From Pirellulaceae bacterium (GTDB lineage: Bacteria; Planctomycetota; Planctomycetia; Pirellulales; Pirellulaceae), in NCBI GenBank assembly GCA_024102795.1, contig JAGFJK010000075.1:1-64000 (forward strand): a stretch of DNA of 64,000 nt, in the 5' to 3' direction. Each line of letters starts with the position of its first letter. The stretch's first letter is position 1. The position numbers and the translations under genes are program-made. Below, in pieces: positions 48,089 to 64,000 of this stretch. The notes beneath the pieces were generated by a model. The model worked only from the letters and a program-made list of their open reading frames with translations. It made no database searches and had not been told where the DNA came from.

Positions 48089-50305
48089 ATGCACCTTGAG
48101 TTCGAAGCTCCCGGAATGTGGTTGTGGGCCGTGCCCCTGGCCCTGGCCGCGCTCGGCCTGTTCGGCTGGTCGTTGGCCGCTCGCGGCTATGCGATCCGCC
48201 GGGTGTTGATCCTGGTGGCGCTGCGCGGACTGACCGGCGTGCTGCTGCTGTTGCTGCTGGCCCGGCCCGTCTGGGTCGCTCAGCGGGACGAAGAACCGCG
48301 GCAGCGCAAGGTGGTGGTGCTGCTGGACCGCAGCGCCAGCATGTCGCTGACCGAGGGCGGGCAGTCGCGCTACGGGCAAGCGGTCGAGTTTCTCCGCGAC
48401 CGGCTGCTGCCCGAGTTGAAGGGCCGCGAGCTGCGGACCGAGGCGATGTTGTTTGCCGAGGAGGCGGAGGATGCCGACGGCGCGCGGGTCAGCTCGGCCC
48501 GGCCCGACGGCCAGCAAACCGACCTGGCGGCGGCCATCGTGCACGCGGTCGGCAGCCGGCAACCGCCGCCGCTGGCCATCGTCGCGCTGACCGACGGCGC
48601 CGTGACGCGCACCGAGCTGAACCGGCGCGCGGTTTCCGCGCTGGTCGACAACGGGATTCCGCTGATCGCCGTCGGGTTCGGCAGCGAAACGGGCAGCAAC
48701 GTCCTGTCATTGGAACGGATCGACGCTCCGGCCACCACGGCCGCCGAGCAGCAGTTCCAGATCGCCGTCCAATTGCAGGCTACCGGCCAGGGCGCGCTGC
48801 CGCCGTTTGACCTGGTGCTGACCCGCAACGGTCTCTTCGTGGAACGCCGGCGGATCGAAGCGGTGACGGCGCCGCGTTACTGGCAGGAGAGCTTTGAGGT
48901 GACCGAAGCGGACGAAGGGCTGGTCAGCTTTTCCGTGCGGCTGTTGCCGCCCAACGATCCGGCGATCGTCTGTCCCAGCCAGGAACTGTCCGCGGGCGTG
49001 CGGGTGACCGAGGAACGCGACCTGCGCGTGCTGTTCGTCCAGGGCGGACTGACCTGGGATTACAAGTTCGTGCGGCTGGCCGTCGGTTCCGATCCGTCGA
49101 TCCGCCTGTCGGCACTCAGCCGCTCGGCCAACCGCTCGTCGATGTTCCAGAACATTCAAGGAGACGCGGACCTGGTCGGCGGGTTTCCCAGCTCGTTGCA
49201 GCAGTTGGCCCGTTACCGCGTGATCGTGCTCTCGAACCTGGGGCCCGCGGATCTGAACGAGGCGCAGCAGCAACTGCTGGATCGGTTCTGCGGCGAGTTC
49301 GCCGGCGGCGTGCTGTTGATGGGCGGCACCGATACGATCAATGCCAACTGGCAAGGCACGCGGCTGGAACAACTGCTGCCGGTGACCGTGGCCCCGGGCG
49401 GCCAGGCCAGCAGCCAGGCCGGCGTCCGGGTGCGGTTGACCGAGGCGGCGCTGCGCCATCCGGTGCTGCAGATCGCGGACGACGGAAACACCACGGCCGC
49501 CTGGTCCCGGCTGCCGCAGTTCACCGGGTTCGCCCGGGTGCAAGGTGTGAAACCTGGCGCCGAAGTCTGGCTGGAAGCGGCCGGCAATCCGGCCAGCCGG
49601 CAGCCGCTGATGGTCGTGCAGCGTTACGGTCGCGGCGTCTCGGCCGTGCTCTGTCTGCAGAACTTCTGGCGGTGGCGCCTGGCCAAGGAAGTCGACACGG
49701 CTCAGTTCGATCGCTTCTGGCGGCAGTTGCTGCGATTCCTGTCCGAAGGCAGTCGCGACACGCTCTGGCTGGCGATCCCCAACCAGCCGCTGGAGCCGGA
49801 CCGGGACCTGCGCGTGGAGCTGGAGCTGCGGCCCGATCCGGAGGCCAAGACGGCCGGCACGGCGGGTTTCGCCCTGCAGGTACTCGACCCGCAGCAGCGG
49901 GAAGTCAGCCGGCAGAACATCCAGCTTCGCTCCGGCCAGACCAGTGAACTGACGTTTCGCACGACCGAAGCCGGGTTGCATCAACTGAACGTGCTGGATG
50001 CGAACCAGGTCGTCCGAGCCTCGCGGAGCGTCGAGATTCGCCGCGTGCCATACGAGTTTATCAACACTTCCCGCGACATCGAGAACCTGAGACAATGGGC
50101 TCGGCTGAGCGGCGGGATGGCGACCAAGGTGGAGGATTGCCTGGACGCCAGCCAGCTTGTGGATCGGTTGAGCGAATCGCTCGAACAGTTGCACCAGCAG
50201 CGTCCGCGATCGCTACCGGCGGCGGTCAACGGCTGGGTGTTGCTGTGCGTGCTGGCGGGTGTTTGCGGGGAGTGGTTTTTGAGGAAGCGCTGGGGATTGG
50301 CGTGA
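48089..50305 (+). CDS. VWA-domain membrane protein (BatB/CoxE-like position in MoxR cluster)
   Basis: 738 residues from the ATG at 48089; the longer open frame to 47366 is antisense-like overlap of the previous gene. Two N-terminal helices (MWLWAVPLALAALGLFGWSL and ILVALRGLTGVLLLLLLARP) precede a VWA domain with the metal site LLDRSASMS (DxSxS) near residue 80 and ALTDGAVTRTE further on. A long beta-rich extracytoplasmic part follows (a glutamine-amidotransferase-like 'VLFVQGGLTWDYKFVR' and 'GGVLLMGGTDT'), then a C-terminal helix (WVLLCVLAGVCGEWFL). It likely binds divalent metal and partners with MoxR. Confidence 0.87.
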   Translation: MHLEFEAPGMWLWAVPLALAALGLFGWSLAARGYAIRRVLILVALRGLTGVLLLLLLARPVWVAQRDEEPRQRKVVVLLDRSASMSLTEGGQSRYGQAVEFLRDRLLPELKGRELRTEAMLFAEEAEDADGARVSSARPDGQQTDLAAAIVHAVGSRQPPPLAIVALTDGAVTRTELNRRAVSALVDNGIPLIAVGFGSETGSNVLSLERIDAPATTAAEQQFQIAVQLQATGQGALPPFDLVLTRNGLFVERRRIEAVTAPRYWQESFEVTEADEGLVSFSVRLLPPNDPAIVCPSQELSAGVRVTEERDLRVLFVQGGLTWDYKFVRLAVGSDPSIRLSALSRSANRSSMFQNIQGDADLVGGFPSSLQQLARYRVIVLSNLGPADLNEAQQQLLDRFCGEFAGGVLLMGGTDTINANWQGTRLEQLLPVTVAPGGQASSQAGVRVRLTEAALRHPVLQIADDGNTTAAWSRLPQFTGFARVQGVKPGAEVWLEAAGNPASRQPLMVVQRYGRGVSAVLCLQNFWRWRLAKEVDTAQFDRFWRQLLRFLSEGSRDTLWLAIPNQPLEPDRDLRVELELRPDPEAKTAGTAGFALQVLDPQQREVSRQNIQLRSGQTSELTFRTTEAGLHQLNVLDANQVVRASRSVEIRRVPYEFINTSRDIENLRQWARLSGGMATKVEDCLDASQLVDRLSESLEQLHQQRPRSLPAAVNGWVLLCVLAGVCGEWFLRKRWGLA

Positions 50306-50326
50306 GGGGAGATGTTACCATTGAAG

Positions 50327-50343
50327 CCCGACGCGTCAGCGAG
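50327..50343 (+). repeat. Copy of dispersed short repeat (cccgacgcgtcagcgag)
   Basis: One mismatch to the consensus cccgaagcgtcagcgag. It lies 22 bases after the VWA gene stop, before the DUF4159 gene. Confidence 0.5.
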
Positions 50344-50484
50344 GAGAGCACCCGCGCGGGACGTTGCGCAAGGAATCGGCGCATGGCAGGTGAGCGCCTG
50401 GCGCTTCGCTGTCTGACGCGCGGGAATACGCCTGCCAACGACTTACGTTCAAAGTGGCGCTGTCCAACTGAGAGGACTCGACCG

Positions 50485-51189
50485 ATGTGGCTGCATCTCC
50501 GAGCGACTCGCGCAAGCTGTCACTTGCTCTGGGGTATTGTTTCGCTCGCCTGGCTGGCGATGACCGCGGCACAGGCGCTGGCCCAGACGACCGACCAGCA
50601 GCACGCTTACTTCTTCATGGGGCGAGTGCAGTACAGCAAGAACGACGGCAAGGACTGTGCCGGCGTGGGGCTGAACATGGCGCGGCTGGTCTCCGAGGTC
50701 TCGTCGATTCACATTCGCGACGAGAAGAAGGTGGCCTTGACCGATGACGCCCTGTTCGAGACGCCGTTTCTGTTCATGAACGGGCATAACGATTTCACGC
50801 TTACCGACGAGGAGCTGGCCAACCTGCGGACGTACCTGCAGCACGGGGGGTTCCTGTTTGGATCGGGTTGCTGTACGAACCCGGCTTTCCCCAAGGCCTG
50901 GCGGCGCGAGATGCAGCGGTTGTTTTCCCAGCCGGTGAAGCGGCTGGAGTACGGGCACCCGATCTACGAGTGCTTTTACAAGCTGGGAGAGATCCGCAGC
51001 CTGCACCGAAATACCACCGTGTATGTCGAGGGGTTGTACCTGGAGGACCGGCTGGTGGCGGTGCTGTGCGAGGATGGCCTGTGCTGCGCGTTCAGCGCGG
51101 ACAACACGTGCAACGTCGGCCGGGGCATCCGGCCCGAAGAGGGCAAAAAGCTGGCCCTGAACATCGCCGTCTACGCGATGACGCACTGA
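50485..51189 (+). CDS. DUF4159 domain protein
   Basis: 234 residues with a signal peptide (LLWGIVSLAWLAMTAAQALAQ) from the ATG at 50485. DUF4159 features are visible: YFFMGRVQYSKNDGKDCAGV, LFETPFLFMNGHNDFTLTDEE and 'LRTYLQHGGFLFGSGCC' (in part). It closes the MoxR/VWA cluster as in other bacteria. The domain has a ThuA- or glutamine-amidotransferase-like fold without known activity. The Cys-rich GSGCC and LCEDGLCC segments are notable. It is separated from the VWA gene by 179 bases that contain a dispersed repeat. Confidence 0.88.
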   Translation: MWLHLRATRASCHLLWGIVSLAWLAMTAAQALAQTTDQQHAYFFMGRVQYSKNDGKDCAGVGLNMARLVSEVSSIHIRDEKKVALTDDALFETPFLFMNGHNDFTLTDEELANLRTYLQHGGFLFGSGCCTNPAFPKAWRREMQRLFSQPVKRLEYGHPIYECFYKLGEIRSLHRNTTVYVEGLYLEDRLVAVLCEDGLCCAFSADNTCNVGRGIRPEEGKKLALNIAVYAMTH

Positions 51190-51306
51190 AAGAGTGCCGG
51201 GGAACACGGCCGAAAAAAAATCTCGCGGGCGCCGAAACGCGGACGATCCAGCAGGGTTGAATCCTCTTGTTGCGGAAACCACGTCTCTTTGGATCAGGAA
51301 ACTTCG

Positions 51307-53736
51307 ATGAGCCGCTGGTCAATGCGGATTGCCCTGTACTGGGGAATGTCGTTGGCTGGGTTGGGTGTTGCCGCGCCCGCCCTGTTCGCTCAAAGCGGTT
51401 CCGAGGCCGAGCGGATGGCGTTTTTCGAACGTCACATCCGGCCGGTGCTGGTGGCCGAGTGTTATTCGTGCCACTCCGCCCAGGCGGACGAGATCGGGGG
51501 CGGTCTGACGTTGGATACGCGGGACGGTATTCGCCAAGGGGGCGATACCGGCCCGGCGGTCGTGCCGGGCAGCGCCAGTCGGAGTTTGCTGGTCAAGGCG
51601 ATTCGGCAAACGGATCCGAACTTGCAGATGCCACCCGACAAGAAGCTGCCTGCCGAGGTGATCGCCAATTTCGAGCGGTGGATCGCTCAGGGTGCCGACG
51701 ATCCGCGGGACGGTGAGGCCGCGGTCGCTCGGAAGTACGAGATCGACATCCAGCAAGGCCGGCAATACTGGGCTTTCCAGGTCCCGTGCGACACCGTGCC
51801 GCCGCCGGTTCGGGCGACCGACTGGCCGCGGAGCGACATCGATCGGTTTGTGCTGGCCGCAATGGAGGCTCAGGGCGCGCATCCGGTGGCCGACGCCGAC
51901 CCGCACTCGCTGGTCCGGCGGCTGTACCTGGACTTGATCGGGTTGCCTCCGTCGCCGGACGACGTGAGCCAGTTTGTCGCGCTGCACGCCCAGGACGCTC
52001 AGGCGGCCGTGGCGGCGACGGTGGACAAGCTGTTGGAGAACCCCGGTTTTGGCGAACGGTGGGGCCGGCACTGGCTGGACGTGGTCCGTTATGCCGAATC
52101 GTCGGGCCAGGCCACGAACTTCGCCTTTCCCCACGCCTGGCGCTACCGCGACTGGGTGATCGAGTCGCTGAATGCCGACACGCCCTACGATCAGTTCATC
52201 CGCCAGCAGTTGGCCGGCGACTTGTTGCCCGCCGAGGACGAGCGGCAGCGGGCGGCGAACATGGTGGCCACCGGGTTCCTGGCGATCGGACCCAAGTCGC
52301 TCAGCGAACGCAACCGGCAGCAGTTCCAGGCGGACGTAGTGGACGAGCAGATCGACGCCACGTTCCAGGCCTTCCAGGCGTTGACGGTGGCTTGCGCTCG
52401 CTGCCACGATCACCGCTTCGATCCGATTCCGCAAACGGATTACTACGCGCTGGCGGGCATCTTCCGCAGTACCGAGACCTGTTACGGGACGATCCGGGTG
52501 GTGCAGAGCAACCATCCCAGCCCGCTGCTGGAGCTGCCGCGCGAGGCCGACGCGACGCAGCCCTATCCGCCGCTGACCGCCGCTCGCCGCGAGCTGATCG
52601 AACGGCAGATCGAATCGCAGCAGGAGCAGATGGCGGAGTTGACCAGCCGCGACCAACTGATTCGCCGCATCTTCATGGCCTCGCGGGTGACTCAGCTTCG
52701 CAGCCAGCTCGACCTGTACGACGGCGACGGCATGCCCCGGCCGCTGGCGATGGGCGTCCGCGAGAGCCGGCAAGCGGCGGACAGCCCGCTGTATATTCGG
52801 GGAGAGATCAACCAGCCGTCGGATCGGGTGGAGCGAGGTTTTCCGCAAGTGCTGACCGTCCGGCAACCGGCGATCGGTTCGCGGAGCAGCGGTCGGCGCG
52901 AGCTGGCGGACTGGATCGCCTCGCCCGACAACCCGCTTACGGCCCGCGTGATGGCCAACCGCGTCTGGCTGCACCTGATCGGTCGCGGCCTGGTCGCCAC
53001 GCCGGACAATTTCGGCGCGTCGGGGCAGCCGCCCAGCCACCCGGAACTGCTGGACTACCTGGCGGTGCGGTTCGTCCAGGACGGCTGGTCGATCAAGCGG
53101 CTGATCCGTTCGATCGTGCTCAGCCGCACCTACCAGCTCAGCTCGCAGTTCGACTACGAGAACTTCGAGAAGGATCCGGAGAACGTGCTGGTCTGGCGGA
53201 TGCCCAAGCGGCGGCTGGAGGCCGAGGCGCTGCGGGACTCGATGTTGCTGCTGGGCGGCAACCTGAACCTCCAGCCCCCGGCCGGCAGCCTGGTCGCCCG
53301 CGGCGGCGAGGGCAACGTCGGCTTCCGGATCACCGGCGATCCGGCGGCCACCGAAACCAACCGTTCGGTCTATCTGCCGATCGTCCGGGACCAGTTGCCC
53401 GAAATGCTCACCGTCTTCGACTTCCCGGACCCCAGCCTGATCGTGGGCGAACGGGCGGCCACCACGATTCCGGCCCAGTCGCTGTACTTGATGAACAATC
53501 CGTTCGTGCAGCGGCAGGCCGATGGGTTGGCGTCGCGCGTCATGCAGGCCAGCGAGGATGACGTCGAGCGGATCAAGCAGGCCTGGCTGCTCGGCTACTC
53601 GCGGCCGCCGACCGACAGCGAGATCAACCTGGCTTTGAAATTCCTGGACGACTACGGCGTTCAGCATTCGGTCCGGGCGACGTGGGCCGCGTTCTGCCAG
53701 GCGATTCTGGCCAGCGCGGAGTTTGCGCAGCGTTAG
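51307..53736 (+). CDS. PSD1-type cytochrome c protein with DUF1549 and DUF1553 domains (second copy)
   Basis: 809 residues, shorter than the copy at 29.4 kb because it lacks that protein's ~160-residue middle insert. The leader is MRIALYWGMSLAGLGVAAPA and the heme motif is CYSCH (Cys52, Cys55, His56). DUF1549 shows RRLYLDLIGLPPSPDDV and HWLDVVRYAESSGQ, with CARCHDHRFDP as a second CxxCH. DUF1553 has [20 protein letters not shown] and RRLEAEALRDSML. The ATG at 51307 was preferred over the upstream TTG; a further ATG at 51322 is also possible. It is paired with the following DUF1501 gene (28 bases apart). Confidence 0.92.
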   Translation: MSRWSMRIALYWGMSLAGLGVAAPALFAQSGSEAERMAFFERHIRPVLVAECYSCHSAQADEIGGGLTLDTRDGIRQGGDTGPAVVPGSASRSLLVKAIRQTDPNLQMPPDKKLPAEVIANFERWIAQGADDPRDGEAAVARKYEIDIQQGRQYWAFQVPCDTVPPPVRATDWPRSDIDRFVLAAMEAQGAHPVADADPHSLVRRLYLDLIGLPPSPDDVSQFVALHAQDAQAAVAATVDKLLENPGFGERWGRHWLDVVRYAESSGQATNFAFPHAWRYRDWVIESLNADTPYDQFIRQQLAGDLLPAEDERQRAANMVATGFLAIGPKSLSERNRQQFQADVVDEQIDATFQAFQALTVACARCHDHRFDPIPQTDYYALAGIFRSTETCYGTIRVVQSNHPSPLLELPREADATQPYPPLTAARRELIERQIESQQEQMAELTSRDQLIRRIFMASRVTQLRSQLDLYDGDGMPRPLAMGVRESRQAADSPLYIRGEINQPSDRVERGFPQVLTVRQPAIGSRSSGRRELADWIASPDNPLTARVMANRVWLHLIGRGLVATPDNFGASGQPPSHPELLDYLAVRFVQDGWSIKRLIRSIVLSRTYQLSSQFDYENFEKDPENVLVWRMPKRRLEAEALRDSMLLLGGNLNLQPPAGSLVARGGEGNVGFRITGDPAATETNRSVYLPIVRDQLPEMLTVFDFPDPSLIVGERAATTIPAQSLYLMNNPFVQRQADGLASRVMQASEDDVERIKQAWLLGYSRPPTDSEINLALKFLDDYGVQHSVRATWAAFCQAILASAEFAQR

Positions 53737-53764
53737 AGTGAACCAGGCTTGGGGAGAATCGACG

Positions 53765-55192
<1,428 letters not shown>

Positions 55193-55240
55193 GCGCCCGA
55201 TGGTATTTGGTCGCTTGGTCGGTCCAGTTTCGAGCCCGTC

Positions 55241-55740
55241 GAGTAGAACCCCACAAATCGCTTCTGGCCCCCTCCCCGGCTTCCGGGGAGGGCTGGGGAG
55301 GGGCTTTTGGCACTTGGTCTAACCTCGACCCACACTCGCCACTTCCACTCAACTACCAACTGGACGCATCCATCCGGACCCGGATGCAGAACACGAACCA
55401 CTCCAAATCCGCGTTCACCGCAGGCCATGGCTCACGTTAAACATCGCGTTGTCCACTCAAACCCGGCAGGCCCCTCCCCAGCCCTCCCCGAAAGCCGGGG
55501 AGGGAGCCAGAGGGATCTTAAGGGGGGCGTCTGCCGCAACGGACGCCAACCCTATTGTGCCTGGTCTGTCGGGCTAAAATCCCTCAGCAAAACAACTTAA
55601 AAGCTGCACGGTCTCGAAGCCGGGGAGGGAGCCAGAAGTGATTCATGGGGTTTCCCAGGCCGGTTGGGATGCCGGATCGAATAGTCAATGAAAAGGTCCT
55701 GAATCTTGATGGCAAAACAACCCATGACCTGCACGACCTC
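55241..55740 (+). repeat. Modular inverted-repeat element R4, with extra B-type arm
   Basis: The left side is a partial B arm (ccccacaaatcgcttctgg) leading to a GC-rich hairpin block (~55270-55305). The asymmetric centre (~55306-55469) is the best match, inverted, to the centre of R1. The right A arm ends aacttaaaagctgcacggtctc (~55596-55617). A complete B arm is then added in tandem (GC block, cagaagtgattcatgggg, gccggatcgaatagtcaatg, aggtcctgaatcttgatgg) and ends ctgcacgacctc at 55740. The last part overlaps the start of the WD40 gene. The region 55193-55708 holds no other gene. Confidence 0.8.
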
Positions 55741-56686
55741 CTCTCCCGCTGCGGCGATGCTGGCGGCCGCGTTTTGCCTGGCGGTGATCCCGCTCAGCTC
55801 GGCGCGAGCCGCAGAACCGCCAGTTACGGCGGCGTGTTTTAGCGCGGACGGGACGACGGTCGTGGTCGGTTCCCAGGCCGGACTGCAGTGGCGGGATTGG
55901 CCGGCGCTGACGGTTCGCCGGCAGTGGAAGACGAAGCTGGTGCAGATCCACCATCTGGCGCTCGAACCGGCCAGCGGTCGGCTGGCGGTCAGCGGGGGCA
56001 GCCCGGCGGAAGCTGGCGGGGCGGAGATTTACCGTTGGCCGCCGAAGGGCGAGCCGACGCGGAGCGTGCGCGGGGGAGAAGACGTCTGGTACCAGTTCGC
56101 CTGGGACGAGCTGGGAGCCGGTTGGGTGGCGGCATCTGGCGACGGCAACTTGTATCGCGGAAGAGAGGATGGCGGCGAGCTGACGGCGGTCGGCGGCCAT
56201 TCCCGCGGAGTGCTTACAGTGGCGCCGGCGGGCGAAAGCTGGTGGTGCTCTGCCGGGATGGATCGCAGCCTGCGGGTCTGGCGGGGCGAGCGGTTCGAGG
56301 CGGTACGGTCGCTGGACAACCACTCCGGCGTGGTGCACGATCTGGCGTTGCGACCGGTGGCGGCCGGACAGGCGGCGGGCCTGAGGATGCTGGCGTCGGC
56401 CAGCGAGGACCGGACGGTGCGCTTCTGGCAGCCGGCGATTGGCCGGTTGGTCCGTTTCGCTCGGTTGCCCAGTCCGCCGCTGGACATCGACTGGTTGCCC
56501 GACGGTTCGCGGCTGGTCGCCGCCTGTGCGGACGGCCGCTTGCGGATCGTGGATCCGGACTCGGCCGAACTGGTGGCGGAACTGGCGGGCGTGGCGGCGT
56601 GGGCTTACACTCTGGTCGTCGCGCCGTCGGGTCGCGAAGCCCTGGTGGGCGGCGCGGACGGCCAGGTGCGTCGCGTGGCCCTTTGA
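55709..56686 (+). CDS. Exported WD40-repeat protein
   Basis: 325 residues from the ATG at 55709. WD-type repeats are visible, for example 'GGHSRGVLTVAPAGESWWCS' then 'LRVWRGERFEAVRSLDNHSG' and 'LASASEDRTVRFW'. A hydrophobic leader, MLAAAFCLAVIPLSSARAAE, starts at an internal ATG (55757). If 55709 is used, the first ~10 residues come from the tail of repeat element R4; 55724 and 55757 are possible starts that depend on it less or not at all. It is probably a periplasmic scaffold without catalytic role. The neighbours are unrelated. Confidence 0.78.
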   Translation: MAKQPMTCTTSSPAAAMLAAAFCLAVIPLSSARAAEPPVTAACFSADGTTVVVGSQAGLQWRDWPALTVRRQWKTKLVQIHHLALEPASGRLAVSGGSPAEAGGAEIYRWPPKGEPTRSVRGGEDVWYQFAWDELGAGWVAASGDGNLYRGREDGGELTAVGGHSRGVLTVAPAGESWWCSAGMDRSLRVWRGERFEAVRSLDNHSGVVHDLALRPVAAGQAAGLRMLASASEDRTVRFWQPAIGRLVRFARLPSPPLDIDWLPDGSRLVAACADGRLRIVDPDSAELVAELAGVAAWAYTLVVAPSGREALVGGADGQVRRVAL

Positions 56687-56717
56687 TGGAACAACGCCAA
56701 TCCAGAGTCAAATCGGG

Positions 56718-56735
56718 CCCGCAAGCGTCAGCGAG
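56718..56735 (+). repeat. Copy of dispersed short repeat (cccgcaagcgtcagcgag)
   Basis: One-base insertion variant of cccgaagcgtcagcgag, 31 bases after the WD40 stop and reaching the 3' end of the small minus-strand gene. Confidence 0.5.
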
Positions 56736-56928
56736 GGACGGGGTGTGCGGCGCTCAGTAGCCGCAAAAACTGCTCAACCAACTGCTGCCGATCGGCGGCT
56801 TGATAGGGAATCCGGCCTTGAGTGACTTCGCGCGCGCCGGCGGCCGAGAAGCCCAAAATTTGCAACTGCCGATCCAAAGTGCCGACGTTGACGTGAATCT
56901 TCGTCCGTTCAAACCGATCCTTTGCCAT
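56728..56928 (-). CDS. Small protein whose N-terminus copies that of elongation factor Tu
   Basis: 66 residues. The first 17, MAKDRFERTKIHVNVGT, are almost identical to the start of EF-Tu, whose next residues would be the IGHVDHGKT P-loop. Here the sequence continues instead with LDRQLQILGFSAAGAREVTQG and a short helical tail, with no GTPase motif. It therefore cannot be a translation factor. It may be a recombination product between tuf and another gene, or a real small protein that borrowed the leader. The open frame extends 11 codons upstream, but the ATG at 56928 matches EF-Tu exactly. It faces the WD40 gene's end. Confidence 0.55.
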   Translation of the reverse strand: MAKDRFERTKIHVNVGTLDRQLQILGFSAAGAREVTQGRIPYQAADRQQLVEQFLRLLSAAHPVPR

Positions 56929-57082
56929 GACATTCCCCACATGGACAGGTGTTGTGGCCACTGATCATCCGACGCTGGTTGGCGACCAGGCCGCGTTGCC
57001 GGATAATCAATAAATGGCAGTCGCGTGAGAAACCTTTCAGGGAATTTTCCATCACCTGAACCCCTGCCGGAAGAAACCCACC

Positions 57083-57430
57083 ATGACCACGGACCTCCCG
57101 CTGCCGCGGACCACTTCCCGCACGCTGCAATTCGAGCAGGGAACGGCGATCGGCATCAGCAATCGCTGGCGCGGGGGCCAGTATTGTTCGATTCTCACGC
57201 CGCTGGGCATTGTCGGCTGCGGGATCTACGACTTGCGGACACCGGCCGAGTTCGGGCAGGCGATCGCCATCGCCAAGGGGACTCCCAGCGACCCGCTGGT
57301 GGAACCCGAAGACCTGCTGGAAGCCCGGATCGTCGGCGTGACGCCCCAGGCCGCCGAACTGGGGATCGAACCGGGCATGACGGGCCGCCAGGCAGTGGAA
57401 ATCATGCTGGCCGCCGCGAAGACGAGCTGA
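57083..57430 (+). CDS. DUF1805 family protein
   Basis: 115 residues. The DUF1805 pattern (as in Bacillus YunC) is visible: 'GGQYCSILTPLGIVGCGIYDL', then AEFGQAIAIAKG, then VEPEDLLEARIVGVTPQAAELGIEPGMTGRQAVE (in two parts: EDLLEARIVGVTPQAAELGI and EPGMTG). The family is small, single-domain and of unknown function; the conserved Cys-Gly (GCG) lies in the second strand. It has no signal peptide. It stands alone between divergent and convergent neighbours. Confidence 0.82.
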   Translation: MTTDLPLPRTTSRTLQFEQGTAIGISNRWRGGQYCSILTPLGIVGCGIYDLRTPAEFGQAIAIAKGTPSDPLVEPEDLLEARIVGVTPQAAELGIEPGMTGRQAVEIMLAAAKTS

Positions 57431-57464
57431 GACGGGGGCAGCCCGAACGCTTGCGACGGGATCC

Positions 57465-58445
57465 TTACTCGCCCCGGCCCTTGGGCCGCACGACGTCGCG
57501 GACCAGACCCAGACGCTCGAGCCCGCGGATCGCCAGCCAGGTCAGGTCGAATTCCGACCAGCGGTGGCCGTGAGCGGCCGATCGCTGCTCGGCATGATGG
57601 TTGTTGTGCCAGCCCTCGCCATGCGCCAGCAACGCCACCAGCCAGTTGTTGCGGCTGCTGTCGGTCGTTTCATAGTTGCGATAGCCCCAGAGGTGCGTCA
57701 GCGAATTGACCGACCACGTCACGTGCCACACAAACACCGTCCGCACGAACACGCCCCACACCAGCAGGCTCAGGCCCAACTGCACTCCGCCCGCGTAGCT
57801 GCCCGTGGTCGCCCAGCCCAGGGCCAGGCCGGCCAGGAAGAACAGCGCGGCGTGAGCGATGTAGATCCAGAGCCAGAGCAAGTGGCGTTCAAGCCGCAGG
57901 TAAAACGGGTCCTTCAGCAGGTCGCGGGCGTAGTGGTCGTAGAACGTCGCCGTGCTGGTCTCGCGGTTGCGGAACAGCAGCCAGCCCAGATGGCCCCAGA
58001 AGAATGTCACCAGCGGCGAATGCGGGTCGCTCGGCTCGTCCGAATACTGGTGATGCCGGCGATGCAGGGCCACCCAGCGAGCGGGCGAATCCTGCAGGCA
58101 GCAGACACCCAGAATCGCCAGAAACCGCTCGAACCACCGCGGGCAGGTAAAGCCCCGGTGGGCGAGCAGGCGATGGTAGCCCAGCGTCATCCCCAGCAAG
58201 CCAAAGAAATAATGGCCCACGATGGCCAGCACCAGGCCCGTCCAACTGAAGAACCAGGGGACCAGCGCCAGCAGGCTCAGAGCATGGACCAGCCCGATCG
58301 AGATCGTGTAGCCGGGCAGCAGCCGCAGCGGCTCCGCTCCGGCGGGCCGCGGGATCCGGCCCGCAGTCGCCTGCCGCTGGGCATTTCCGCCGCCCGAAAC
58401 GGCCGTCTGGCAAGGATCCGCGGGCCGAGAGGAGGCGCTGCTCAT
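57465..58445 (-). CDS. Acyl-CoA / fatty-acid delta-9-type desaturase
   Basis: 326 residues with four hydrophobic stretches. The three histidine boxes of membrane di-iron desaturases are all present: HRLLAH (in LGYHRLLAHRGF), HRRHH and HNNHH (in GWHNNHHAEQ). The enzyme introduces a cis double bond into fatty acyl chains using oxygen, changing membrane fluidity. A variable Pro/Ala-rich N-terminus of ~40 residues precedes the domain; a slightly later start cannot be excluded. The neighbour on the same strand is the DNA glycosylase 217 bases upstream. Confidence 0.93.
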   Translation of the reverse strand: MSSASSRPADPCQTAVSGGGNAQRQATAGRIPRPAGAEPLRLLPGYTISIGLVHALSLLALVPWFFSWTGLVLAIVGHYFFGLLGMTLGYHRLLAHRGFTCPRWFERFLAILGVCCLQDSPARWVALHRRHHQYSDEPSDPHSPLVTFFWGHLGWLLFRNRETSTATFYDHYARDLLKDPFYLRLERHLLWLWIYIAHAALFFLAGLALGWATTGSYAGGVQLGLSLLVWGVFVRTVFVWHVTWSVNSLTHLWGYRNYETTDSSRNNWLVALLAHGEGWHNNHHAEQRSAAHGHRWSEFDLTWLAIRGLERLGLVRDVVRPKGRGE

Positions 58446-58662
58446 GGGTGGGGAGGTTTCCGCGTGGGTCGTGTCGAGCGCGGTCGTGTCGAGCGCCTTG
58501 GGGGGGGCCGCAATCGGACTTCGCTCTCAAACATTCACCAAATCCTGGTCTGGTGCAACCCCAAGATTGGAGCATGCGCCCTGGAAATTCGCACAAGATG
58601 GTCAGTGTGAGATATCTGCGAAGACTTTTCAAGCTGGTCAAACAGTTGCCGGACTGGCGTTC

Positions 58663-59244
58663 TCAGCCGGAATCCGCCAGTCGTGCATGCCGAAAGCAGT
58701 CGACCAGATGGTCGTTCACCAGGCCGGTGGCCTGCATGTAGGCGTAGCAGATCGTGCTGCCGACGAACTTGAAGCCGCGCCGCTTGAGGTCTTTGCTCAG
58801 CGCGTCGGATTCCGCTGTTTTCGCGGGAACGTCGCCGAGCGAGCGCCAGCGGTTCTGGATGGGCCGCCCGCCCACGAAGGGCCACAGGTACTGGTCGAAC
58901 GTCCCGAATGCACGCTGGACATCGAGAAACGCCCGGGCGTTTTGGATGGCGGAGTCGATTTTCAGCCGGTTGCGGACAATGCCGGGGTTGGCCAGCAACG
59001 CGACTCGCTGCCGCTCGCCGAACCGGGCCACGCGGACCGGGTCGAACTGTGCGAATGCTTCCCGGTAACTCGCCCGTTTGCGGAGGATGGTTTGCCAACT
59101 GAGTCCGGCCTGCGCGCCTTCGAGGATCAGCAGTTCGAACAGCAGGCGATCATCGTGTACCGGGACGCCCCATTCCAGGTCGTGGTACTGGATGTATTGT
59201 TCTCCCTGGGCCCAGGGGCAGCGAACGATTGGCGACGAATTCAT
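58663..59244 (-). CDS. tag: DNA-3-methyladenine glycosylase I
   Basis: 193 residues from the ATG at 59244, normal Tag length; the longer frame to 59373 adds non-homologous residues. The family pattern is clear: RCPWAQGEQYIQYHDLEWGV (zinc ligands Cys9 and His21), LLFELLILEGAQAGLSW with the conserved glutamate, LKRRGFKFVGSTICYAYMQA and the closing NDHLVDCFRH, which supplies the second His and Cys of the zinc site. It removes 3-methyladenine from alkylated DNA in base-excision repair. No adaptive-response regulator is adjacent. Confidence 0.95.
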   Translation of the reverse strand: MNSSPIVRCPWAQGEQYIQYHDLEWGVPVHDDRLLFELLILEGAQAGLSWQTILRKRASYREAFAQFDPVRVARFGERQRVALLANPGIVRNRLKIDSAIQNARAFLDVQRAFGTFDQYLWPFVGGRPIQNRWRSLGDVPAKTAESDALSKDLKRRGFKFVGSTICYAYMQATGLVNDHLVDCFRHARLADSG

Positions 59245-59381
59245 GGTCCCCTCCCGCGGTGCGCGTTCCAGGCTGATTGTGGCCGATTTGGGACCGCCGT
59301 CGATCCGGCATGCGGCTGGTCCGTGAAAATTCCGCAGCGCGCCGTTGACAACCGGCCCGGCCGCGGCTAACAAATACAGAT

Positions 59382-59394
59382 ACTGAGACTCAGT
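59382..59394. promoter_or_regulatory. Short palindrome actgagactcagt
   Basis: A 13-base palindrome (6-bp arms, one central base) in the divergent region between the tag and DUF1559 genes. It extends into a weaker tgagactcagtttca symmetry. It may be an operator; metal-repressor boxes have similar forms, but no regulator is identified. Confidence 0.35.
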
Positions 59395-59461
59395 TTCATC
59401 AGTCTCCCGGACGCAGCCAGCCCGACCGCCCTCCGGCGGAGCCAGCCACGCCCCGTAAGTG

Positions 59462-59488
59462 ACGCCCCATAAACGGTTTATGGGGCGT
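59462..59488. promoter_or_regulatory. Perfect 27-base palindrome upstream of the DUF1559 gene
   Basis: acgccccataaac and its exact reverse complement gtttatggggcgt surround one base. It lies 31 bases before the chosen ATG (59520). The near-zero loop makes an operator more likely than an RNA hairpin, although in mRNA it would also form a strong stem. Confidence 0.55.
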
Positions 59489-59519
59489 GTAAGGGTGTCT
59501 TGTGGCTGGAGGTCGCATC

Positions 59520-60416
59520 ATGCGTCGTTCTTCGAGGTTTTCTGCTTGCCGCTGCCCAGGCGGCATCCGTCGCGCGTTCACGCTGGTCGAACTGCTGGTG
59601 GTGATCGCCATCATCGGCATCCTGGTGGCCCTGCTGCTGCCCGCCGTGCAGGCGGCCCGCGAGGCGGCTCGCCGCATGTCCTGCACCAACAACTTGAAGC
59701 AGATCGTGCTGGGGATGCACAACTACCACGACACGTTCGGCGCGTTTCCGGCCGGCTGCGTATCGACCGAGAACTTCGTCAGCGGTTTCGCCTCGGTCCT
59801 GCCCTACCTGGAATCGGGCAACCTGTACCAGGCCTACGACTTCAACCTGTACTACACGGACCCTCACAACGTGGCCGTTTCGGAGCAGCGGATCCCCGTC
59901 TATCTCTGCCCCTCGATGCCCCTGTCCCGCGAGGTGCCCGACACCGTCTGCGGCGAAACGGGCGGGCCCAGCAGCTACCTGTTGTCGGAAGGGTCGGACG
60001 ACTACATGCAGCAAGGGGACGGCGTGTTCAACCTGGTCTGGCCGCGCTACGGTTACCGCAACCGGCAGGTGGCGTTCCGGGACATCCTGGACGGAACCAG
60101 TCATACGATTGCCATCGGCGAGACCACGTACCACATGAAGGACTATCTCTGGACCAGCGGACCTTGCGTGGGACAGATCAAGTGGGGCACGGCCCGCTGG
60201 GCGGTTGGATATCCGAAGATCGCGCTGGGCACCACGCTGCTGCCGTTCAACCTGCACGCGGCGGCGGGCAACGGCGGCTACCAGAGCCATCATCCGGGCG
60301 GAGTGAACTTCGCCTTGTGCGACGGCAGCGTGCGGCTGATCCACGACACGATCGAACCGTCCGTCCTGCGGGCGCTGGCCACGCGCGACGGTGACGAAGT
60401 CGTGAGTCTGGACTGA
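59520..60416 (+). CDS. DUF1559 protein with type IV pilin-like N-terminus
   Basis: 298 residues from the ATG at 59520. The N-terminus carries the prepilin cleavage and methylation motif [20 protein letters not shown], followed by the planctomycete-typical [18 protein letters not shown]. The body is DUF1559 ([20 protein letters not shown] and the C-terminal [16 protein letters not shown] with its H-x-DGSVR signature). It is exported through a type II-like system and is among the most duplicated families of planctomycetes. The function is uncertain (pseudopilin or surface protein). It is co-transcribed with the lipoprotein gene 14 bases downstream. Palindromes upstream suggest regulation. Confidence 0.94.
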
Positions 60417-60430
60417 GGGGGCATGGCAAG

Positions 60431-60898
60431 ATGAAATCGGCCCCGACCGCCAAACCAACTTCCAGAGCTGCCCGGTGCTGGTTCTTGTCCCGGGCGCTTG
60501 CTTGTCTGTTGCTGGCGGCCGCATGCGCGGCGTGCGGCCGTTCGGGTCCGTCCCGCTACGCGGCTTCCGGCAGCGTCACGCTGGGCGGCCAGCCGCTCGA
60601 TCAGGCCTCGATCATTTTCGAGCCGCGTGGCAAGGGCGGCCTGGTCGTCGCCGCTCCGGTGGTCAACGGCCAGTTTGCCTGGACCGAGCGGAACGGTCCG
60701 GCCGCGGGCGAGTACGACGTGCGGGTCAATCCGCACGGCGTCGACGAAACGGAGGCGAGGCAAATCGTCCAGCAGAATACGGGCCGGCCAATCGAAAGTG
60801 TTTCGGTGCCGGCGCGCTACCAGCGACCCGGCGAGCTGACCGCCACGGTCACCCCGGCGGGTCCCAACCAGTTTGAATTCGATTTAGAATCCCGGTAG
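60431..60898 (+). CDS. Small lipoprotein partner of DUF1559 protein
   Basis: 155 residues. A basic N-terminus and a hydrophobic stretch end in LLAAACAACGRSG, a plausible lipobox with two candidate cysteines (CAAC). The mature part reads as one carboxypeptidase-regulatory-like beta-sandwich: YAASGSVTLGGQPLDQASII, then GPAAGEYDVRVNPHG. Such lipoproteins regularly follow DUF1559 genes in planctomycetes. The role is unknown. Confidence 0.8.
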   Translation: MKSAPTAKPTSRAARCWFLSRALACLLLAAACAACGRSGPSRYAASGSVTLGGQPLDQASIIFEPRGKGGLVVAAPVVNGQFAWTERNGPAAGEYDVRVNPHGVDETEARQIVQQNTGRPIESVSVPARYQRPGELTATVTPAGPNQFEFDLESR

Positions 60899-60927
60899 GC
60901 GTAAACCTTCCTTGAACGAGGTGTGGC

Positions 60928-62658
60928 ATGTCGATTCGAATGGTCTTGTGTCTGGCAACGATCCTGGGGGCCCAACTGCTGGCGTCGCCGGCATCCGCCC
61001 ATTTTCTGTGGCTGGTGCGCGGCACGGACGCGGGCCAGCCGCGGCTGAACCTGTACTTCGGCGAGTTGGCCGAGGCGGACGATCCGGATCTGCTGGACCG
61101 CGTGGCGAGCGCCACCGCCTGGCAGCTTCACCAGGGTGGCTCGGCGCGGCAGCTCAGCTTTACCAAGTCGTCCGACGCGCTGACGGCGAAGCTCGGCGAT
61201 GATTCGTCCGCTTCCCTGTTCGCGCTGGCCCACGACCTGGGCGTGATCGAACGGGGCGGCGAGGCGTTTCTGTTGAAGTACTACGCCAAGACGGGGCCCG
61301 CGCTGGGCGACCCGGCCTGGGAGAAGATCGAGTGCGGCAAGCATCTGGCGCTGGACCTGGTTCCTCGCCGCGACGGCAATCGCCTGCAGCTCAGCCTGCT
61401 CTGGCAGGGCCAGCCGCTGGCTGGCGCCGAGGTCAAGGCGCACGGGCCGGGGCTGGCGGAGTTCGAGGCGGTGACGGACGACCAGGGACAAGCCGGGCTC
61501 GTGCTGGGCAAGCCGGGCACCTATTCGATCCGAGCCCGCTATATTGAACCGCGGGGAGGCAAGTCCAATGACCGTTCGTACGCTTCCACCCGGCACTATG
61601 TGACGCTGGCCTTGCAAGTGAATGAAAACCCAGCCGACAAACCGTCGACCGAATCGTCCGAGGCGTCCGGGGAGTCCAAGGATTCTAATAAGTCCAAGGA
61701 GTCCGAGGGGAGCAAGACGGCCAAGGCTCCCCAGGCATCCCAGCCGGCCGACGCGCTGCCGGCCATTCCGCGGATGGTGACCAGTTTCGGAGCGGCGGTG
61801 CTCGACGGGTCGCTCTACATCTATGGCGGCCACACGGGCCGGGCCCATTCGTATTCGGACCAGACGCAGGCCCGCACGCTGCACAGGTTGAACCTGGCTC
61901 AGCCCAAAGCCTGGGAGTCGCTGGGCGACGGGCCGGGATTGCAGGGTCTGGCGCTAGTCGCTCACGGCGGCCGGCTGTACCGGATCGGCGGCTTCATGGC
62001 TCGGAACAAGGAGGGCCAGGAGCACGATTTGTGGTCTCAGGCGGAAGTGACCAGCTACGACCCGGCCAGCGGCAAGTGGACCGAAATCTCGCCGCTGCCC
62101 GAACCCCGCAGTTCTTTTGACGCGGCCGTGCTAGATGGCAAGATCTACGTGGTGGGTGGCTGGCAACTGGCGGGCGAGGCGGAATCGAAGTGGCATCAGA
62201 CGGCGTACGTCCTGGATCTGGCGGCTGGCGCGCCGAGTTGGCAACCGTTGCCCGCACCGCCGTTCCAGCGGCGGGCGCTGGCGGTGGCTGCTCACCAGGG
62301 TCGGATCTATGCGATTGGCGGGATGCAGCGCGAGGGTGGTCCGACGACGCGCGTCGACATCTTCGATCCGGCCAGCGGCAAGTGGACCGAGGGTCCCGCG
62401 ATCCACGGCGAGCCGATGGACGGTTTCGGCCCGTCGGCCTTTGCCACGGGCGGCCGGCTGTATGTGAGCACGTACGGCGGCAGCCTGCAGCGGCTGGCCG
62501 AGGACGGCCAGAGTTGGACTCTGGTCCGCAAGCTGGACCGGGCCCGGTTCTTTCACCGCATGCTGCCGCTGTCCGAACGGCGGTTGCTTTCGGTGGGCGG
62601 CGCGAGTATGACCGAAGGCAAGTTCGATCAGTTGGACGTGCTGGAAGTCGGGCCGTAG
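60928..62658 (+). CDS. Exported DUF4198-like / Kelch-propeller fusion protein
   Basis: 576 residues. The signal peptide is MSIRMVLCLATILGAQLLASPASA. Residues ~25-235 look like DUF4198 (AHFLWLVRGTDAGQPRLNLY..FGELAE.., then GQPLAGAEVKAHGP), a domain often linked to nickel or cobalt transport. A Ser/Lys/Glu-rich linker (ESSEASGESKDSNKSKESEG, ~245-270) follows. Residues ~285-576 are Kelch blades (SFGAAVLDGSLYIYGG, SSFDAAVLDGKIYVVGGW, ALAVAAHQGRIYAIGG). It is probably a periplasmic binding protein. It starts 29 bases after the lipoprotein gene, perhaps in the same operon. Confidence 0.83.
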   Translation: MSIRMVLCLATILGAQLLASPASAHFLWLVRGTDAGQPRLNLYFGELAEADDPDLLDRVASATAWQLHQGGSARQLSFTKSSDALTAKLGDDSSASLFALAHDLGVIERGGEAFLLKYYAKTGPALGDPAWEKIECGKHLALDLVPRRDGNRLQLSLLWQGQPLAGAEVKAHGPGLAEFEAVTDDQGQAGLVLGKPGTYSIRARYIEPRGGKSNDRSYASTRHYVTLALQVNENPADKPSTESSEASGESKDSNKSKESEGSKTAKAPQASQPADALPAIPRMVTSFGAAVLDGSLYIYGGHTGRAHSYSDQTQARTLHRLNLAQPKAWESLGDGPGLQGLALVAHGGRLYRIGGFMARNKEGQEHDLWSQAEVTSYDPASGKWTEISPLPEPRSSFDAAVLDGKIYVVGGWQLAGEAESKWHQTAYVLDLAAGAPSWQPLPAPPFQRRALAVAAHQGRIYAIGGMQREGGPTTRVDIFDPASGKWTEGPAIHGEPMDGFGPSAFATGGRLYVSTYGGSLQRLAEDGQSWTLVRKLDRARFFHRMLPLSERRLLSVGGASMTEGKFDQLDVLEVGP

Positions 62659-62686
62659 GTCGCCGGGCTTCCACTCCGGGAAGCCC

Positions 62687-63355
62687 ATGAATCCATCCGC
62701 GTCTGAGCCACCGCCCGAGCCGCAGTCCGAGCCACAGTTCAAGCCGCTATCGGGCGAACCACCGGACGGCCACGAGCGGCCGGTGCCGCTGGTGAACGTC
62801 CCGAACCTGCTGAGCGCCGCGCGTCTGGCCGGTTCCCCGCTGCTCTTGCCACTGGCCTGGTACGAGCAGCGGGGAGCCTTTCTGGGCCTGTTCGTGCTGC
62901 TGATGTTGACCGACTGGCTGGACGGCAAGCTGGCCGTGGCCTGGCGGCAGCGGACCGCCTTTGGCGCTCGGCTGGACAGCGTGGCCGACGCGCTGATGTA
63001 CGGCGGTCTGCTGGTCGGCGGCTGGCTGCTGATGCCGCAGTTCGTGGCCCGGCATGCGGCCTGGATCGGGGCGGCGCTGGCCAGCTTCGCCCTGACTTCG
63101 CTGGTGGGTCTGATCAAGTTCGGCAGGCTGCCGAGCTACCACACGCTGGGAGCGAAGGCCGCCTGGTTCTTGAGCAGCACGGGCGCGCTGATCGTGCTGG
63201 CGGGCGGTCCGACGTGGCCGTTCTGCGTGGCCATGGTGGTGGTCACGGCGACCAATCTCGAAGCCACGGCGATCTCGCTGGTCCTTCCCCGCTGGCAAGC
63301 CGACGTGCTGTCGATCTATCATGCGTGGAGACAGCAGCGGCCCGGCAAGGCGTGA
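62687..63355 (+). CDS. CDP-alcohol phosphatidyltransferase family protein with altered active-site motif
   Basis: 222 residues. The N-terminal ~35 residues are Pro/Glu-rich. Six hydrophobic helices follow. The CDP-OH motif is DWLDGKLAV...GARLDSVAD with exact family spacing (D-x2-D-G-x2-A-R-x8-G-x3-D-x3-D), except that the conserved Arg of 'AR' is Val. Family members join CDP-diacylglycerol to an alcohol such as glycerol phosphate, inositol or serine. The substitution may lower or change activity. A phosphatidylglycerophosphate synthase-like enzyme is the default guess, not a firm assignment. Confidence 0.82.
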   Translation: MNPSASEPPPEPQSEPQFKPLSGEPPDGHERPVPLVNVPNLLSAARLAGSPLLLPLAWYEQRGAFLGLFVLLMLTDWLDGKLAVAWRQRTAFGARLDSVADALMYGGLLVGGWLLMPQFVARHAAWIGAALASFALTSLVGLIKFGRLPSYHTLGAKAAWFLSSTGALIVLAGGPTWPFCVAMVVVTATNLEATAISLVLPRWQADVLSIYHAWRQQRPGKA

Positions 63356-63395
63356 GCGGGCCGACTTCCGCAATGCCGCCGCGGGTACGAAGCAA

Positions 63396-64000
63396 GTGGC
63401 CACGATTCTGCACATTTCCGATCTGCATTTCGGACCGCCGTTCGTCGAGCGGGTGGGCGAGGCGCTGCTGCGCATCGTGCCGCGGCTGGAACCGGATGTG
63501 ATCGTGGCCAGCGGCGATTTCACTCAGCGGGCCAAGGTCGAGCAGTTCGAGCTGGCCAGGCAGTTTCTCGATCGGCTGCCCGACGTGCCGCTGGTCGTGG
63601 TGCCCGGCAACCACGACGTGCCGCTGTACCGGATCCGCGAGCGGTTATTCGAACCATACCGGCTGTACCGGCAGTACATCGCGCCGGAGCTGGATTACAA
63701 GGTGGAACTGGATGGGCTGGTGATTGTGGCGTTGAATTCCACTTCGCCCGTGCGGACCATCGTCAACGGGCGGATCGACGAGGAGCAACTGGAGTATTGC
63801 AGCCGAGCCTTCGCCGACGCGCATCCGGAGGCGGCCAAGATCGTGGTCGCTCATCATCACTTCGCGCCGGCTCCCGACTTCGTGCGCGACCAGGTGATGC
63901 CCAAGGCGAAACGGGCCATGGACCGCTTTGTCAGCCTGGGCGTCGACGTGGTGCTGGGCGGCCATCTGCACCGGGCCTATATCGGCAATTCGCTGGACGT
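63396..64000 (+). CDS. Calcineurin-like metallophosphoesterase (3' end outside window)
   Basis: At least 201 residues are visible, starting with GTG at 63396 (VATILHISDLHFGPP); no ATG lies close by. All metal-binding blocks are present: HISDLHFG, VIVASGDFTQ, VVPGNHDVP, VVAHHHFAP and GGHLHRAY. The type resembles class III cyclic-nucleotide or nucleotide phosphodiesterases (CpdA-like family), but the substrate is not defined. The start is 41 bases after the phosphatidyltransferase stop, so the two could be co-transcribed. The C-terminus lies beyond the window. Confidence 0.9.
   Translation, partial: MATILHISDLHFGPPFVERVGEALLRIVPRLEPDVIVASGDFTQRAKVEQFELARQFLDRLPDVPLVVVPGNHDVPLYRIRERLFEPYRLYRQYIAPELDYKVELDGLVIVALNSTSPVRTIVNGRIDEEQLEYCSRAFADAHPEAAKIVVAHHHFAPAPDFVRDQVMPKAKRAMDRFVSLGVDVVLGGHLHRAYIGNSLD

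Follow-up and report, generated by a model that had tools for sequence, protein, structure and literature searches.

An EF-Tu-like leader in front of an orphan tail: a small open reading frame that may be a one-off recombination chimera

A 66-residue open reading frame (ORF) begins with 17 residues that resemble the start of EF-Tu and continues into a tail that has no convincing relative in the collections searched. The ORF is most likely a one-off recombination chimera and not an established gene family. In the favored reading, which is held with middling confidence, the chimera is lineage-specific, the 5' end of tuf from a lineage outside the sample having been joined in frame to unrelated DNA. 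Both the recombination event and a foreign or lost donor are proposed from sequence comparison.

The ORF and its surroundings

The window analyzed is a stretch of 64,000 nucleotides within a contig of 65,624 bases (C132), part of a draft genome of 8.56 Mb in 519 contigs. The source looks like a planctomycete; a family search of nearby genes found the planctomycete-type domains PSCyt1, DUF1549/DUF1553, DUF1501 and DUF1559. The ORF product is MAKDRFERTKIHVNVGT followed by LDRQLQILGFSAAGAREVTQGRIPYQAADRQQLVEQFLRLLSAAHPVPR (Table 1). Use of the GTG at 56961, 33 nt upstream of the ATG, would give a product of 77 aa. The repeat that holds the stop codon, CGTCCCTCGCTGACGCTT, occurs three times in the genome; with its first 23 bases as the pattern, two more copies besides the one over the stop were found, with 3 mismatches. 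No Rfam match was found in 50000-64000 and no tRNA in the window, and the predicted fold of the ORF region is less stable than those of shuffled sequences (z +2.0).

Table 1. Coordinates of the ORF, its parts and its neighbors in the window
Feature	Position	Strand	Remark
ORF, 66 aa	56928 to 56728	minus	ATG at 56928, TGA at 56730-56728
EF-Tu-like leader, codons 1-17, MAKDRFERTKIHVNVGT	56878..56928	minus	EF-Tu comparison
Orphan tail, 49 codons, three predicted helices (low to moderate confidence)	56731..56877	minus	
TGA stop codon, within dispersed repeat	56728..56730	minus	
Dispersed repeat CGTCCCTCGCTGACGCTTGCGGGC	56717..56740	minus	Repeat search of genome
Possible GTG-started upstream extension, 11 codons, outside EF-Tu similarity	56929..56961	minus	
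Neighbor, WD40 repeat protein, convergent with ORF	55706..56686	plus	
Neighbor, DUF1805 protein, divergent from ORF	57083..57430	plus	

The DUF1805 neighbor is present in 30 other genomes, and gene order was compared at 29 loci (L044-L072). At none of the 29 does the WD40 gene, the desaturase or the ORF stand beside the DUF1805 gene; two chance-level rows (E 0.26 and 0.46) fall in L050. The neighborhood of the ORF is not conserved across these loci.

The EF-Tu-like leader

The original prediction described the leader as the EF-Tu start almost residue for residue, followed by unrelated sequence from the P-loop on, and both observations hold. The leader is identical at 15 of 17 positions, from Met1, to the EF-Tu of many relatives, a level reached by 24 of the 74 tuf loci examined, some of which are copies of the same gene. 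At position 11 the ORF has Ile, where all 74 loci have Pro. The similarity stops at Thr17, just before the P-loop; the next residues are LDRQLQIL, and the P-loop motif GHxDHGKT is absent after the leader. The family profile of EF-Tu, TIGR00485, gives the ORF 13.7 bits over residues 1-19 only, against a curated cut-off of 522.4 bits, and the ORF is thus not a full-length EF-Tu. In a tblastn search of positions 54501-60000 with 30 EF-Tu proteins, the 30 best rows, which extend to E 0.005, cover residues 1-18 only.

The boundary is equally sharp in the DNA. With the ORF aligned to tuf at the ATG, mean identity to 30 loci is 0.74 over nucleotides 1-51 and falls to background on either side, with 0.23-0.28 over the 60 bases upstream of the ATG and 0.23-0.32 downstream of the leader (27 loci for the last bin). 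A leader match far beyond chance, homology confined exactly to codons 1-17, and flanks at background support a chimera. The lack of tail relatives, a neighborhood unconserved at the 29 DUF1805 loci, and a stop in a dispersed repeat support it as well. Illegitimate recombination would have put a tuf start, the ATG and 16 further codons, ahead of unrelated DNA, in the gap that separates the WD40 gene from the DUF1805 gene. The donor would be a tuf from an unsampled or lost lineage, not the present tuf of the genome, and the join would have stayed in frame by chance for 49 more codons, ending in the repeat.

The tail and its coding signals

Searches with the tail returned little. No relative was found at E<=0.001 in 97 other genomes. 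Across 241 family genomes searched at E <= 10, the better rows are nearly all tuf leaders and the remainder cover the tail weakly. The sole match at E<=0.01 other than a tuf leader, among those listed from these genomes, is L030, which reads antisense to another GTPase gene and was rejected as a tail homologue for that reason. L040 was also rejected; on inspection its reading frame appears to be antisense to a long gene resembling the DUF1549/DUF1553 type. A further weak match, in L081, is a frame of 272 aa. When the tail alone was the query, matches at E<=0.01 came from 2 of 395 other order-level genomes, a number no greater than expected by chance. In the GTDB-220 contigs nothing matched but the tuf leader of a single Chloroflexi bin, carried by two contigs, and phages yielded matches to the leader only. 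On plasmids, the ten rows listed, beyond which the search matched 56 further records, are tuf leaders except for two (E>=4) whose alignments extend into the tail. IMG/VR gave no tail match, and Pfam and PHROGs gave no convincing one. The search for the tail elsewhere therefore did not reveal a conserved small-protein family. Apart from the genome of the window itself, the genomes searched yielded none from another species or strain of its genus.

The main rival to a chimera of this kind is a young functional small gene. The start of tuf would have been captured as a ready-made translation start for a helical tail, existing or newly formed, and the product would be made and kept by selection. 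This explanation is unlikely but far from idle, and the coding signals that bear on it are mixed. The tail is open in frame, and the ORF has a codon score of 0.14 bits per codon, the best of the six frames. However, this score is below that of 99% of equal-length stretches of nearby genes, and 3% of wrong-frame stretches exceed it. The GC content of the tail by codon position (0.73/0.45/0.69) is coding-like, with a permutation P of 0.0016 for a statistic picked after viewing the values, and is better explained by a real gene than by random intergenic DNA, which counts against the chimera. The GC3 of the ORF is nevertheless only 0.65-0.69, versus 0.85 in nearby genes, and no sigma-70-like promoter was found on the minus strand at the scan threshold. 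An AlphaFold2 single-sequence model has helices at residues 15-24, 29-36 and 44-61, in keeping with a helical tail, with a mean pLDDT of 67 and a pTM of 0.34. A PDB fold search with this model gave no significant match (best E 2.6), and the lack of relatives likewise speaks against a young gene.

Probability of a chance match

An EF-Tu-like peptide could also have arisen by convergence, selected or by chance, with no descent from tuf DNA. At the nucleotide level it is no more similar to tuf than any synonymous encoding of the same peptide would be. A weaker chance resemblance is present in the same genome (64% over 14 residues, E 1.11), and many windows combined with many motifs offer a reader many chances. 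Against this stand a match that begins exactly at Met1 and the odds from a profile of the distinct leaders of the tuf loci then collected. Scored against the background composition of the window in all six frames, the profile gives p = 9e-21 for a single position, 1.2e-15 for the window and 1.6e-13 expected matches per genome. These odds leave aside the number of motifs a reader might recognize, which would need to be extremely large to matter. Even if many motifs and many genomes are generously allowed for, the expectation per genome stays small. Chance is therefore very unlikely, in agreement with the original prediction that convergence over 17 residues is improbable, and convergence of either sort is given a low probability. 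Standard searches return weaker E-values for the leader because the match is so short, 0.005 with NCBIfam and 0.0057 with PDB (BLOSUM-based); a leader query tuned to the ORF gave 3.1e-5 in its own genome.

The source of the leader

The genome has one recognizable tuf (C173:32269-33462; also L003, 1498-2694, minus strand), the leader of which is MAKETFARGKPHCNVGT. This leader is itself unusual in having Ala, Gly and Cys where Glu, Thr and Val are usual. The ORF leader shares with it 11 of 17 residues, 31 of 51 nt and 4 identical codons. Random synonymous encodings drawn with local codon usage share 32.3 +/- 1.6 nt of 51 (P 0.86 for the observed 31). The proposal that the ORF is a scar from the tuf of this genome is unsupported because 31 of 51 nt shows no sign of shared DNA beyond this null. 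The original prediction thus fares unevenly. A recombination scar is consistent with a leader beyond chance and a break before the P-loop, whereas the genome's own tuf, with which it proposed a comparison, is unsupported as the source; the leader is no closer to that gene than chance, yet no unbroken non-EF-Tu family emerged either, because no homologues were found. Its other candidate, use of the leader by another small protein, would leave the same sequence pattern as a chance-born chimera.

The own tuf protein is 91.5% identical to its nearest fetched relatives, and its divergence is moderate along the whole length and not in the leader alone; the gene therefore looks ordinarily inherited. 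A swap of leaders between it and the ORF is unsupported, since the own tuf is diverged throughout, not just in the leader.

It is very improbable that the ORF is what remains of a second copy of the own tuf after decay. In favor of a remnant, the ORF leader is slightly closer to the two nearest tuf genes (39-40 of 51 nt) than the own tuf leader is (37 of 51), and 9 of 89 related genomes have a second, divergent EF-Tu. The chance-level identity to the own tuf stands against it, as does the failure to find any further tuf sequence near the ORF among the 30 best rows from 54501-60000. According to PMC1780047, two tuf copies in one genome are usually nearly identical, through gene conversion, which speaks against a recently arisen second copy of this tuf as the donor.

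The second EF-Tu proteins of the nine relatives (G008, G011, G018, G024, G032, G047, G052, G064 and G079) score lower than the main copies, 524-618 bits compared to about 650-697. Eight of the nine matches begin at profile position 5 or later; most therefore seem to lack the standard leader, which also argues against a remnant.

No donor was detected among the 74 fetched tuf loci. The best match to the ORF leader has 40 of 51 nt, no better than the 40.7 +/- 1.2 of 51 obtained with random synonymous encoding against 43 loci. This random-encoding level weighs against the chimera, and DNA-level descent from tuf is therefore undemonstrated. Among the tuf leaders themselves, nearest neighbors share 40 to 51 of 51 nt. 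The mean same-codon rate is 0.50 between the ORF and tuf and 0.52 between tuf genes, an equality that fits a tuf of an unsampled lineage. By these comparisons, the ORF leader looks like either the tuf leader of a lineage outside the sample or a re-encoded peptide.

An assembly artifact, in which a false contig join set the end of a tuf beside unrelated DNA, is less probable still. The genome is a draft, and tuf loci are often at contig ends in related assemblies. However, the DNA to either side of the 51-nt leader is not tuf, ordinary genes surround the ORF within its 65.6 kb contig, and the assembly contains no other similar tuf leader. The least probable reading is a selection-kept mimic of the EF-Tu N-terminus, in which a helical body would present the tail and first strand of EF-Tu, for example as a decoy for an EF-Tu binder; a conserved peptide with randomized synonymous sites would fit such a mimic, but fits an unsampled donor equally.

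Relation to known systems

The chimera, as the preferred reading, has precedents in kind. Illegitimate recombination yields chimeric or gene-fragment ORFs in which a short piece of a known gene is fused to unrelated sequence. The ORF likewise consists of a short gene piece and unrelated sequence, in a fusion that has no relatives. Unlike such ORFs generally, it carries a gene piece of just 51 nt, for which no donor was found. The ORF resembles the N-terminal segment of EF-Tu at residues 1-17, but unlike EF-Tu it has no P-loop, GTPase domain or further EF-Tu sequence, and the Pro11 that is invariant in the tuf loci is replaced. The elf18 epitope consists of the first 18 residues of EF-Tu. The ORF leader spans nearly the same residues, a likeness in sequence only, which implies no link to plants or recognition.

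Should the ORF be expressed, it would illustrate cleanly how a new bacterial small protein can arise by capturing the start of one of the most strongly translated genes. Should it not be, it would be a scar left by ectopic recombination, and a warning against identifying a gene from 17 conserved residues at a start codon. Among the titles and abstracts from a literature search, none describes an EF-Tu leader joined to a different small protein, which is weak evidence.

Other occurrences of the leader

No second orphan leader was found among the matches listed from the family search and the search of 297 class-level genomes, 278 of which were matched by the leader. Nine clearly short-frame leader matches among those listed from the class-level genomes all run into contig ends. 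The candidates among the listed matches of the family search were L029, which is a contig end, and G250, which is an interrupted tuf. In G250 two overlapping frames, of 93 and 305 aa, divide the gene between them (L082, 1356-1637 and 442-1359, minus strand), through either a frameshift or a sequencing error. The listed leader matches also include a 307-aa frame in G116.

PHROG 27465 and 17 phage records match the leader. The three of the 17 records that were inspected are a full-length tuf (one) or bacterial loci (two), and an att site or tuf-targeting element is unsupported. In the Moraxella phage Mcat7 record, a full-length tuf lies behind the leader match; from position 2355 of this locus (L076), a fusA-like end and the tuf, which is unannotated, lie between attL and the integrase. 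Either the record has misplaced boundaries or host DNA is part of the prophage. The two other records are Acinetobacter contigs with bacterial rpsL-rpsG-fusA loci, in which about 840 and 40 bases, respectively, separate the leader match from the end of the record. Both (L077 and L078) are filed as Acinetobacter phage MD-2021a, with these bacterial genes near the contig ends.
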